Below are positions 2,338-29,772 of a DNA stretch of 64,000 nt, piece after piece. Where the stretch lies: NCBI GenBank assembly GCA_005778405.1, contig SXOA01000132.1:1-64000 (forward strand), in the 5' to 3' direction. The position numbers and the translations under genes are program-made. This DNA comes from Planctomycetaceae bacterium. GTDB taxonomy: Bacteria > Planctomycetota > Planctomycetia > Pirellulales > Pirellulaceae. A model generated the notes under the pieces. That model saw only the letters and a program-made list of their open reading frames with translations. It ran no database searches and was not told where the DNA came from. The stretch's first letter is position 1. The number at the start of each line of letters is the position of its first letter.

Positions 2338-3617
2338 ACCGCGGCCTCCGCGGTTTCCGTCGGCAATTCCGGCCAGCGACTTTGTCTTTTAAGGCTAGCG
2401 GTGAGGTCGGCGATGATGGCTGGCTCAACGTACTTGTCCACGCTTTCGCTCGCCAAATTCACCACGCTTCCGGCGAGCTCCGGGTATTCGGTCAACAGCT
2501 CTTCCCAGAGCCGATGTCCGCGGGTCACTTCGACCGCGCGGACCAGGCCAGCCGGGGTGAAGCGGATTTCATCCGTTTCAAGTCGTTCGACAAGTCCGCT
2601 GCTGGCGGCATTGGAAATGAGTCCATTGACCTTTCCTGGCGACCAGGATTTGCGGGCGAGAAGGTCGGCCGCGCTGACCCGCGCTTGCCCGGTGCGAGAG
2701 GCAACGTCGTAGGTGGCTAGGAGCAGTTGCCGTTCTCCATAGTCGCGTTGGAAGCAACGATGTTCCAGCAGCCGGACCATCGCGCCGCGACGAGTGCCCA
2801 AGAGCATCGAAATCAGAAAGATGACCGAGCCGCTGAGCACGATAATCGGCCCGGCTGGAAACAACGAAAACAGCGCGCTAAAAACGGTGCCGATAAGGCC
2901 GGTCAGTAGGCCAAACGCGCCGGCAATGAAGAGCAGCCAACCCAGGCTGTCCGTCCAGAACCGGGCCCCCGCTCCCGGCAAAATGAGCAGCGCGGCCATC
3001 ATGATGATGCCGACGGCTGGCAGGCCGATGACCACGGCCACGGCGATAAGCGACATCAGCAGCAGGTCCAGCCAATAGACCGGCCAGCCCAGCGAGCGGG
3101 CGAAGCCGGTGTCGAAGGCGACGACCTTGAATTCCTTGTAGAGAACGAGGACCACCGCCAGGCAGAACAAGGCGGACGCCAGAATCAGATACACGTCGGG
3201 CCGCGTCATTCCCGCGGTCTTGCCAAGGATGAACGATTCGAGGCCCGCTTTGCTGCCGTTCGTCGTCATGTTTTGAATCATGCGGCTGAGAGCGAAGCCG
3301 AGGCCGGGGAAGACAGAGAGAACAATGCCGATGGCGGCGTCTTCCCGCACGCGGGTCCAGCGGCAGAGGGCGGCGATGATGACAATGCCTAGCACGCCGC
3401 TGGCCAGGGCTCCCAGCAACATGAACGTCAAATTCCGCTCGCCGAGTATGAGGAATGCCACACAGACTCCTGGCAGTGCGGCGTGAGCGACGGCATCGCC
3501 GGTCAGCGCCCGCTTCCTCAGCACCGCGAAGCTGCCGACCATGCCTGCTCCTGCTCCCAGAATGCTTACCCCCAGCAGCACCACGATGGTGTTGTATGCG
3601 AGTAGCTGCTCGATCAT
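2334..3617 (-). CDS. metal ABC transporter permease fused to a degenerate DtxR-like module
   Basis: A 427-residue protein. Residues 1-280 are a manganese/zinc-family permease (ZnuB/MntC fold), including [18 protein letters not shown] and [20 protein letters not shown], with eight or nine spans. Residues about 295-420 form a winged-helix plus helical module like DtxR ([40 protein letters not shown]). Unlike its partner, the second metal-ligand helix reads [13 protein letters not shown], so the His/Glu ligands are lost and no PHG motif follows. It pairs with the next permease, presumably as a heterodimer. The gene overlaps both neighbours by four bases, so the operon is probably translationally coupled. 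The substrate (Mn, Zn or Fe) cannot be decided from sequence. Confidence 0.87.
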
Positions 3618-25885: not shown

Positions 25886-27043
25886 CTATAGTTCCAGACA
25901 GACTACATGCGTGCTGGAACGGAGATAGAGCCGCTTGCCAACCAGGGCCGGATGGGCGTAGACGCCGCTTTCGTCGGGAAAGACGGTCAATCGGCTGATG
26001 AGCTTGAAGGAATCGGCCTGGGCGTCGACGAGCAGGAGTTGTCCGTTCTGCGAGGTGATTAGGAGCCTGTCCTCGGTGGCAATGATGGTGGCATATTCGG
26101 TGAAGGCTTCGTCTTCGGCAGTCCAAACGACCTTCAAGCTGTCCGCCAGGTTCAGACAATGGAGCTTATTGTAAACTCCGAACAGCCGGTGGCCGACGAT
26201 GACTGGAGTGTGCATGTCTGGCGCGAGCGGCTCATAAATGGCCAGTGGCTTGGCGATGATGCGGCCGGCGTCGAACCCAAAGAGCCGAGTACCGTTGTTC
26301 TCGGTGCTGAGCAGCAGCTTGTCCTTCCAGACCAAGGGGGTCGGCACATTGAAGTCGTGATCGTTCTCCGGCGTGAGCGTCCACAGCCGCTTACCATTCC
26401 CTGCATCCCAACCGCCGAGACTCGTCTGGTCATAGCCAACCAGTTGTTCCTTGCCGCTAATTGTCGTGAACAGAAAAGAGGCGAAAGCGGCTGGCTGGCC
26501 GGCGGATTTCCAGAGGACGTCGCCGGTCTTGGGTTCCAGGGCGACAAGTGCGGCGTCGGGGCCGCCGGGATTAATGATGAGTTTGCCCTGGGCGATCAGC
26601 GGCGAGCTGGCCATGCCCCACTTCATTTCGTCGGTCGCGCCGAACTCCTTGCGGACTTCTTTCTTCCACAGAACCTTGCCGGTCTTTAGCTCCACGCAGT
26701 GGAGCTGGCCGAACGCACCGTAGAGGAACGCCAGGTCTCCCGCAATGTGCGGCGTGGCCCGCGGCGAGTTGCCGTAGTCAAGGTTTCCCTTGGCAAGGTA
26801 ACGAACCGTCCAGGCTTCTTCGCCCGTATCGGACTTGAAACAGCGGAAGATGTCGGACGAGTCGAGCAGATCCCGGTCGCTGACGATGACCAGGTCTTCG
26901 GTCGCCGCAATGCCGCCGAGCCCTTGGTTACTGAGCTTCTTTTTCCAGAGAAATTTGGCTTCCTGCGGAAGTTCGTTCGGCAGCCAGGGAACATGGCCGT
27001 CGCGGTTGGGGCCTCGCCATTCGGGCCAGTCAACGGCTGCTAC
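25886..27043 (-). CDS. PQQ-type beta-propeller domain reachable only by -1 frameshift from the PhnD-like gene
   Basis: The frame encodes 385 residues starting V-A-A-V-DWPEWRGPNRDGHVPWLP, the classical first blade of planctomycete PQQ_2 propellers. Blades such as LHCVELKTGKVLWKKEV, ALVALEPKTGDVLWKSAG and GWDAGNGKRLWTLTPE follow. From its beginning to 26695 (116 codons) there is no ATG, GTG or TTG, and no signal peptide. The frame is -1 relative to the upstream binding-protein gene and enters at a run of nine A residues. The domain is therefore most likely expressed as a C-terminal extension by frameshifting or transcript slippage, or else the homopolymer length is wrong. It would be periplasmic with its fusion partner. 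Confidence 0.8.
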   Translation of the reverse strand, partial: VAAVDWPEWRGPNRDGHVPWLPNELPQEAKFLWKKKLSNQGLGGIAATEDLVIVSDRDLLDSSDIFRCFKSDTGEEAWTVRYLAKGNLDYGNSPRATPHIAGDLAFLYGAFGQLHCVELKTGKVLWKKEVRKEFGATDEMKWGMASSPLIAQGKLIINPGGPDAALVALEPKTGDVLWKSAGQPAAFASFLFTTISGKEQLVGYDQTSLGGWDAGNGKRLWTLTPENDHDFNVPTPLVWKDKLLLSTENNGTRLFGFDAGRIIAKPLAIYEPLAPDMHTPVIVGHRLFGVYNKLHCLNLADSLKVVWTAEDEAFTEYATIIATEDRLLITSQNGQLLLVDAQADSFKLISRLTVFPDESGVYAHPALVGKRLYLRSSTHVVCLEL

Positions 27044-27906
27044 TTTTTTTTTGCTGCCGTCAGCGGAGCGGCTTCGACTTCTACGAAGCCGGCTTTGGTT
27101 TCCAGAGCCAGGCAGAGAAGAGGTTCATTCTTAAGTGCCAGGAGTTCCGCCTTCACAACCGCCTGAAGCTTGGCATCGAGTTGCTCGGAGACGAACGCAG
27201 CGACGAAGGGGACGGGGCTCGTTTCGCCGATGACCCGCAAGTCTCCCTTCTTCACGGTGCCGCAACCTTCCAAGAGCGGCTTGGCATAGCTGCTGATGAC
27301 GGCGGCGCCTCGCTGGTCCTTGGGGAGTTCCAGGATGAGCACGGCCCCTTCGTTGCAAGCGGCGCGGGTTTCGATTTCCTGCGGCGCGGAAACCTTGTAA
27401 GACTTGAGCAGAGCCAAAGCGGCGGTGTGCTTCTCGTCGCACTCCTTGGGGCCAAAGATGATCCGGTAGTCCGCCAGGTCCGCCACGCTCTTGGCCTTGT
27501 CGCCAGTGTGGACGACAATCAGTCCGGTCTGCGTCGTTTTCCCGTCTTTGCCGGTCAAGCTGGCGACTTGCTTCACTTGCACGCCTGCTTTGGCGGCGTC
27601 AAATAGCACGACCGAATGCTTACCGATGATGAGGTCCGCTTTGCCGTCGGTCTTGGATTTGAGAGCCGAGACAAGGGACTCGCTGTAAACAATCTTCACT
27701 GCTCGTCCCAGCTTCACTTGTAGGTGGGCAGCCAGTTTGTCGTAATCCCGCTGGGCGTAGCCTTTTACGCATGGGCAGGACAAGGGCGCTGCCAGCGGGT
27801 CCATAATGACGATCGTCAGCGAGTCATCCGCAGGGGCGGGCTTGGCTTCGTACGTGAGCGCGAATGTAGTGACGATAACAAAGACGAGAGCGAGGGCGTA
27901 ACGCAT
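27040..27906 (-). CDS. PhnD/SsuA/transferrin-type substrate-binding protein, cysteine-rich
   Basis: A 288-residue protein. The ATG at 27906 (MRYALALVFVIVTTFALTY) has AGGA 8 bases upstream and a signal peptide cut near residue 25. The fold resembles the periplasmic binding proteins of phosphonate transporters: a first lobe with LTIVIMDPL..., YDKLAAHLQVKLGRAVKIVY, ADLIIGKHSVVLFDAAK, then TQTGLIVVHTGDKAKSVADL. It has unusual cysteines in PLSCPCVKGYA, GPKECDEKH, RAACNEG, EGCGTV and LLCLAL. No permease or ATPase is adjacent, so it may act as a sensor or electron-transfer partner. It ends AAKKK then TAG at 27040-27042 directly after a slippery run; see the PQQ frame. Confidence 0.75.
   Translation of the reverse strand: MRYALALVFVIVTTFALTYEAKPAPADDSLTIVIMDPLAAPLSCPCVKGYAQRDYDKLAAHLQVKLGRAVKIVYSESLVSALKSKTDGKADLIIGKHSVVLFDAAKAGVQVKQVASLTGKDGKTTQTGLIVVHTGDKAKSVADLADYRIIFGPKECDEKHTAALALLKSYKVSAPQEIETRAACNEGAVLILELPKDQRGAAVISSYAKPLLEGCGTVKKGDLRVIGETSPVPFVAAFVSEQLDAKLQAVVKAELLALKNEPLLCLALETKAGFVEVEAAPLTAAKKK
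27043..27052 (-). promoter_or_regulatory. slippery sequence A AAA AAG followed by TAG
   Basis: On the minus strand the zero frame reads GCA AAA AAA AAG TAG, a run of nine A then G. A AAA AAG in this phase is the classical -1 shift heptamer of E. coli dnaX. A -1 shift, or one extra A in the transcript, joins the PhnD-like frame to the PQQ frame, giving about 673 residues. No strong upstream Shine-Dalgarno stimulator was seen. Confidence 0.65.
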
Positions 27907-28008: not shown

Positions 28009-29541
28009 TTACCCTGCCGGCTTCGCGTCTTCCTGTTTCGCCAGGATGATGATTTGCGAGCCGCCGAGATCGTAGAAGTAGATGTACTTGCCGTCCTTCG
28101 ACGAACCGATGGCGACGTTCTTGCAACCGCCGCTGACGGCTGCGCTGGCAGCGAGGCCGATGTACTTTCCCTCGGGAGTGAAGCACTTAACTTTACCTTC
28201 GGACTCGGACGTCAGGATGTTCCCTTCGGGCGTGAAGCAAACATTCATCGGATTGCAGCAGCCGCCAAAGCTGGGACCGCTAGATTCCCGCTCGCGCGAG
28301 CCGAAGGAGCCGAGCTTCTTCCCCTCTTTGCTGTAGTGGACGACGGAGTGGCGAGAGTTCTCAGCGACCCAGAGTTCGTCGCCGCGAGCTTGCACATCCA
28401 TCTGCCCACAGCAGCCCGAAAGGCCAGTGATGACTTGCTTGGCGTTCTTGAATTCCATGTCCGTCCGCCAAACCGCAAAGCCATAGCCTTTGGTGGCGGC
28501 AGTGGTCAGGTAGACGTTGTCCGCGGAGACCGTAACGGAATGGATTTTCTGCAGCCGCGCCGTGATTTCGTTGATGACGTCCTCGACCGATTTCTTGTCG
28601 AGCTGCGCGACCATCGACTCATAGCTCTTGATGATCTGCTTGTACTGGCGCACCTGGTTTTCCAGGATTTGCTTCTGGCTGGTGCCGGGCTGGTTCGCAC
28701 CGCCGAGGATGATGGTAGCTCGAACTGCTTTCTTCTCTTCCTTCTCTTCGCCAGGATTGTCTTCAGTCTTTTCGGCAGGTTTATCCTCAGCCTTTTCGGT
28801 CGGCTTGTCTTTGGGCGTATCGGCTGGATTGTTTTTCGCGTCCTCCTTCTTCTCCGCCGCATTGAGCTCCTGGAGCTGGTTTTCAAACCCCTTGATCGTC
28901 TCGGTGAATTGCTCCACCTGCTGCTTGTACAGTTCTTTTTGCTCTTTGAGCTGCTCGGTCGCTTGTTCGCGGAGGCTGTCCATGTCTTTCAGCACGGCCT
29001 CGACGTGCGGCGAAGCGACTTCCAACAGCAGCTGGCCGGCGTGGTCATATTTCGCCATCCGTCCGCTGCCGCCGACGTAGATGTTGCCAGTGGGGTCCGC
29101 GGCAATCCGCTGCGGAGTAAAGGGGGTGGTCCATTGTGTGACTGCTTTTCCTTCCGCGGAGAAGACGTGGATTTCGCCGCCGACCTTTAATTTCGTTTCC
29201 ACATCTGCGCCGTAAGTGACCGGCGCGGAGACGACTGCGTAGATCTGGTCCCCCGCGCCAACGCAAAAGGTTTGCAATGTTCCGCTGCCATCTTTGCCAC
29301 GGACAACCACCTTCGTCAGTTCCTTGTGCGTCGTCGGCTCCGTCTCCTTCGCCGCCTCGGGAATGACGTTGAGAGCGCGGAGCGTCGTGGTTGCCTTGGG
29401 TTGATCCTTTGCGGGAGCGGGTCTTACAGGATCGGCCTGTGCTGGTTCATCGCCGTTCCCGGTGGAGAGCAAACCCGCGGAAAGCAGGCTGGCGACTGCC
29501 GCGCCGGCCAGCAGATTGCGGATAGAAAACCAGGCTCGCAT
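28009..29541 (-). CDS. exported NHL-like propeller protein with a coiled-coil insert
   Basis: A 510-residue protein from MRAWFSIRNLLAGAAVASLL (signal peptide), with AAGGAG 7 bases before the ATG at 29541. Propeller-like blades (GEIHVFSAEGKAVTQW, QRIAADPTGNIYVGGSGRMA, GDELWVAENSRHSVVHYSKE, NVCFTPEGNILTSESEGKV) are split by a long charged insert at about 165-310. The insert is a Gln/Glu/Lys-rich coiled coil (EQATEQLKEQKELYKQQVEQ) followed by a Lys/Glu/Pro repeat tract. Paired cysteines SGCCGQMD and GGCCNPMN occur in the later blades. It heads the operon with the PhnD-like and PQQ genes. Function unknown. Confidence 0.72.
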   Translation of the reverse strand: MRAWFSIRNLLAGAAVASLLSAGLLSTGNGDEPAQADPVRPAPAKDQPKATTTLRALNVIPEAAKETEPTTHKELTKVVVRGKDGSGTLQTFCVGAGDQIYAVVSAPVTYGADVETKLKVGGEIHVFSAEGKAVTQWTTPFTPQRIAADPTGNIYVGGSGRMAKYDHAGQLLLEVASPHVEAVLKDMDSLREQATEQLKEQKELYKQQVEQFTETIKGFENQLQELNAAEKKEDAKNNPADTPKDKPTEKAEDKPAEKTEDNPGEEKEEKKAVRATIILGGANQPGTSQKQILENQVRQYKQIIKSYESMVAQLDKKSVEDVINEITARLQKIHSVTVSADNVYLTTAATKGYGFAVWRTDMEFKNAKQVITGLSGCCGQMDVQARGDELWVAENSRHSVVHYSKEGKKLGSFGSRERESSGPSFGGCCNPMNVCFTPEGNILTSESEGKVKCFTPEGKYIGLAASAAVSGGCKNVAIGSSKDGKYIYFYDLGGSQIIILAKQEDAKPAG

Positions 29542-29772
29542 GACAAACTCCTTGAGAAGGGAGCAAAGCTCCAATACCCCGCATTTCGACAGGCCGATTA
29601 TACGTGAGTGCAGGGTGGGGCGGCAATTGTTGCTTCGAGATTTAATTAATCCGACCTGCAGTAGTGGCACCGTCATGACAGTCATAACACATTTCGTTGA
29701 CCCAACACCGCCCTGCCGTTAGGATTAAGACTTGCCAAATTGTTCCCGTTTTCAGACGGACCAGGCGACTTT

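Follow-up and report, generated by a model that had tools for sequence, protein, structure and literature searches.

A binding protein and a beta-propeller joined across a conserved A8/A9 run in planctomycetes: a candidate case of slippage yielding two exported products

Two domains in two frames at an A9 run

The stretch of DNA analysed here (the window, 64,000 nucleotides from a Planctomycetaceae bacterium) carries on its minus strand a gene (27906-25886) that occupies two frames, the second being -1 relative to the first. How can the second half be produced, if it has neither a start codon nor a signal peptide of its own? The first half is an open reading frame of 288 residues (27040..27906, minus) with a signal-like N-terminus. 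It encodes a PhnD-like binding protein, which matches Phosphonate-bd (PF12974) in Pfam at 6e-22 (78.6 bits, above the gathering score of 27) and has homologues at 33-62% identity. An invariant CxC motif and a later Cys are also present in it. The 3' end of this frame reads GCA AAA AAA AAG TAG. That is, the slippery site at 27043..27054, with its run of nine A's at 27044-27052, is directly followed by the stop codon TAG (27042-27040), and the short product would end KKK-stop.

The second half (25886..27046, minus) encodes a BamB-like propeller of 386 residues. Its sequence begins with DWPEWRGPNRDG and matches PQQ_2 (PF13360) in Pfam at 1e-23, and a structure search groups it with BamB. The sequence-only reading had placed this propeller in the -1 frame of the exported binding protein, with no ATG, GTG or TTG for 116 codons. 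Both statements agree with what we have read in the sequence and in a frame scan: the propeller frame is open from 72 nt 5' of the A9 run, and its first candidate start is a GTG at 26695. The propeller, which begins at the run, also lacks a signal peptide, and the fused relatives described below have a single one. A -1 shift would give a fusion of 673 residues, so that the two products predicted earlier, of 288 and about 673 residues, agree with the lengths of the open reading frames.

The run is the sole A9 in the window. Since shuffling gives an expectation of 0.36 per window, an A9 run is by itself unremarkable, and its weight has to come from comparison. In the stretches fetched from the window's genome there are 64 runs of at least eight A's, among which only the binding protein-propeller gene is clean for this design; the other raw candidates seem to be ends of genes or fortuitous overlaps. 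At one locus of the same genome (C78:17000-20000), a GAF-HlyD reading frame ends 65 nt past an A8 run near position 1566, and a second HlyD-type reading frame is open in the -1 frame, though it may be an ordinary neighbour gene. A class-wide look at A9GTAR, with 30 loci read, has found no other gene in which a long upstream frame closes at the run and a -1 frame of propeller length follows.

Conservation of the junction across the class

We have sought homologues in close relatives, in named genome contigs, and in 398 genomes of the class, and then sorted the regions. Among the 98 sorted loci, 6 were left out because nothing in the stretch fetched matched the propeller, leaving 92 with both domains. 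The -1 layout with A8 or A9 at the junction occurs in 60 of these 92 (the window's own counted in), with A9 in 44 and A8 in 16, while 28 are uninterrupted in-frame fusions. Of the remaining four, two were scored +1 and two have both domains in the same frame with a stop. The 60 loci span about 39 genera, and their protein identity to the window is roughly 40-60%. A homopolymer of about nine A's at the frame transition, with its length kept among homologues, is present throughout these 60 loci, and other runs of at least eight A's are rare (16 in 463 kb of these loci, both strands). Copies are few in the genomes searched beyond the class; four copies have both domains, and all four are in-frame fusions.

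The exceptions can be read individually. One locus scored +1 (L068) is, on reading, a -1 site with the propeller broken further on. In another (L055), an A10 run leaves the propeller in +1, and losing one A is needed to reach it. The propeller frames of L015 and L068 are interrupted within the domain, by decay or by assembly errors. In L112, whose genome (G100, contig C124) also holds L198, an in-frame TAG at the junction near oriented base 3256 splits the domains (...PEPA*RTNPGR...). No obvious start follows this TAG, pointing to readthrough, a sequencing error or decay.

This census also bears on whether the frame break is an artefact. The window comes from a 6.1-Mb genome in 203 contigs, a metagenome-type assembly, in which a homopolymer error in sequencing or assembly would be an obvious suspicion. 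However, the identical layout recurs in 60 loci, several of them on single-contig genomes, and with such conservation an error can be rejected for the family; we give it a negligible chance. The check on run length in relatives that was proposed with the sequence-only reading has thus come out, in 60 loci, as A8 or A9 in the same -1 layout, and neither of the refuting conditions set with that reading has held. No relative examined has a propeller with its own start and signal peptide, and in relatives where the frame is continuous, one signal peptide precedes exactly the fusion that was predicted.

In a tree of 96 copies, the label (fused or -1) changes about 8 times, with 7 of the changes forced by well-supported branches. 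A single genus, g104, contains A9 copies in -1, A10 copies in frame and A8 copies in frame. Such a difference of one A between close relatives (A9 in -1, A10 in frame) is what phase variation could leave, that is, a run changing its length in the DNA and toggling the fusion within a population. Nevertheless, switching loci are expected to show mixed frames and lengths among their copies, while we have observed 61 copies in -1, five run-bearing copies in frame and one in +1, with lengths almost only 8 or 9. Phase variation is accordingly very improbable. Three in-frame copies, namely two of the A10 copies of g104 (L048 and L064) and an unrelated one with A9 (L097), have a stop in the other frame right after the run. 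Loss of one A from the run would restore the short form in all three, although this stop could reflect inheritance and not selection.

Probable expression of the propeller and apparent selection on the short form

The possibility of two separate genes, the propeller being translated through reinitiation or an atypical start codon, might be suggested by the closeness of the propeller to the stop, and at least one NTG or ATN codon does lie somewhere in the propeller frame in 37 of the 60 loci. Yet 39 of the 60 have no ATG, GTG or TTG in that frame at all. In 14 loci, a TAA extends into the beginning of the run, so that the -1 frame is not open until within it; 9 of these 14 lack any NTG or ATN codon as well. 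In addition, an envelope-type propeller would be left without a signal peptide, and fused relatives exist. Considering the missing starts and the frames that open inside the run, we have rejected a start of its own for the propeller, and two separate genes are highly improbable. The 14 loci at the same time place the shift at the run.

The propeller is evidently expressed, since it is under purifying selection although a start of its own is impossible. Close pairs of relatives give a dN/dS of about 0.04-0.17 over both halves, and of about 0.07-0.17 over the propeller half alone. Together with the hard-wired fusions, the selection on the propeller implies that a protein of the shifted frame is produced. 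Many planctomycete genomes probably annotate two gene models for this one two-product gene, with a wrong start for the propeller.

Is the short form then a product, or merely waste? In 58 of the 60 loci, the 0 frame meets a stop no more than two codons past the run, compared with 7.9% at control positions of the same shifted frame. This stop usually arises from GTA, a valine codon when read in the frame of the propeller. The valine is encoded by GTA in 41 of 45 loci, while the choice of valine codons in these genes would predict 3.1; the corresponding probability of 1e-47 is only nominal and not to be read literally, because the loci share descent. The rare codon has been retained through many genera. 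As the stop next to the run appears selected, the short protein should be an intended product. A natural fusion (L064), modelled with AlphaFold, has two confident domains, with a disordered linker (residues 290-317, below pLDDT 50) that coincides with the position of the run in the slipping relatives, so that the short form would be a complete binding protein. Overall, both products look selected.

These observations bear on a neutral account as well, in which an indel was fixed in the run, slippage rescues enough of the fusion, and the short form has no role. The fused relatives are viable without an obvious short form, and similar cases are reported in endosymbionts (cited in PMC3711429). 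Against this account are the stop adjoining the run, which is strongly kept, the GTA bias, and a -1 state that has lasted over so many genera. We regard it as improbable, though less so than the accounts dismissed above.

As to function, an NHL/SMP-30-like propeller gene lies upstream in the same apparent operon (28009..29541, minus; the start at 29541 is our choice, as the listed reading frame starts at 29685) and has a signal-like start. In 85 of the 92 loci, a homologue immediately precedes the binding protein-propeller gene on its strand, and 3 of the other 7 have too little upstream sequence. The NHL protein (28009-29685, minus) contains the CC motifs SGCCGQMD and GGCCNPMN and a later GGCK. 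These motifs and the CxC and Cys of the binding protein may have a role involving metals or redox chemistry. Around the 92 loci, no consistent transporter neighbour (permease or ATPase gene) was found; genes for a GntR-family regulator and an ABC ATPase adjoin the operon in some genomes, upstream and divergent in L078, L082 and L108, and downstream in L021. The likeliest arrangement is that the short form acts as a free periplasmic ligand-binding protein, while the long form would be anchored by its propeller and work with the NHL-propeller partner.

Polymerase or ribosome, and comparison with known systems

The explanation that we consider best, with a probability of about 0.74, is that one gene gives two exported proteins through slippage at A8 or A9, mainly transcriptional, with the stop beside the run maintained by selection. 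Faithful reading of A9 (or A8) by RNA polymerase would yield the 288-residue binding protein. If the polymerase slips, adding one A or dropping two, ribosomes would continue into the propeller, and the slipped transcripts would encode the fusion of about 673 residues with its one signal peptide. Ribosomes that slip by -1 on A AAA AAG or A AAA AAA may raise the yield of fusion. The occurrence of slippage, its rate, its mainly transcriptional nature and the roles of both forms are what we infer from these sequence patterns.

The sequence-only reading had named the dnaX heptamer in this phase and left open whether the ribosome or the transcript slips. The heptamer is indeed there: in the 0 frame, 59 of the 60 sites read A AAA AAR, and one reads A AAA AAC. 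Programmed -1 frameshifting on faithful transcripts, in the manner of E. coli dnaX, could hence be the main mechanism; besides the heptamer, the phase is mostly constant, the stop adjoins the site, and there is a slight excess of downstream structure (mean z of -0.78, with 11 of 60 below -2), although the fused controls are also somewhat stronger (-0.47). However, six A's and a G are all that the dnaX heptamer requires, while all 60 sites keep at least eight A's, holding 8 or 9 where the bases 5' of the heptamer are otherwise free in an unstructured linker. That the length is kept although the surplus A's fall in this linker points to transcription. Moreover, the last codon of the run is AAC at five sites, and a stimulator is missing: a Shine-Dalgarno-like motif upstream of the run shows no enrichment (7 of 60, against 1-9 at control offsets). 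We therefore consider the ribosome an unlikely main agent, though the most serious alternative.

We had also considered the phase of the run as a discriminator, since 55 of 60 runs are phased AAA AAA AAG/AAC, which suits ribosomal slippage too. It was dropped, because inheritance can explain the phase, since a wobble substitution in the codon ahead of it turns A9 into A8, and the phase is thus silent on ribosome or polymerase. A point against transcriptional slippage as the best explanation is that A8 runs are less slippery in the best-studied bacteria. Published analysis sets the slippage threshold near nine A's in many bacteria, with eight reported for Deinococcus IS elements (PMC1088944). 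On balance, run length and the absent Shine-Dalgarno stimulator favour the transcript without proving it; we would put transcriptional over ribosomal slippage at about three to one, and the two may be mixed. The broader claim, that selection across the whole class keeps transcriptional slippage in a non-mobile chromosomal gene, setting the ratio of two exported proteins, with repeated switching to and from a hard-wired fusion, seems to us somewhat better than an even bet.

Most known cases of programmed slippage in bacteria come from mobile elements, along with a handful of individual genes. The mechanism itself is not new, but neither the gene family nor its conservation across the class seems to have been described: we found no report of the family in the open literature. 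In its domains, the gene shares the family of PhnD (PF12974; PDB 5jvb) and the fold of BamB (PF13360). It differs from PhnD in having no permease or ATPase gene consistently adjacent, in its conserved CxC, and in a score far under the NCBIfam PhnD equivalog cut-off (22 vs 261 bits), and from BamB in a propeller without its own signal peptide that is far under the BamB equivalog cut-off (50.7 vs 285 bits).

In its junction, the gene resembles E. coli dnaX, a -1 ribosomal frameshift on A AAA AAG, by the heptamer in the 0 frame and the nearby stop, but its run exceeds what the heptamer needs, and neither a Shine-Dalgarno stimulator nor a strong conserved hairpin was found. In Deinococcus IS elements, too, reading goes on in another frame at an A8 or A9 run (PMC1088944), whereas the planctomycete gene is non-mobile and has a conserved operon context. 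In Shigella spa13 and mxiE and Citrobacter tssM (PMC5009743, PMC4256274), a downstream frame is likewise reached through slippage; those are secretion-system genes, while this is an envelope gene kept over a bacterial class. Thermus thermophilus dnaX (PMC1088944) is similar in being a chromosomal gene with an A9 run and two products that differ at the C-terminus. There, however, faithful reading gives the long form, while in the planctomycete gene it would give the short form, and the planctomycete long form gains a whole second domain. A Thermus-like orientation is seen in the three in-frame relatives whose run is directly followed by an out-of-frame stop. The planctomycete gene is unusual in how deeply it is conserved for a non-mobile one, and in the series of hard-wired alternatives that nature provides. 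One tree holds dozens of its variants (A8, A9, A10, fused and unfused), so that comparison can test both the role and the mechanism of slippage.
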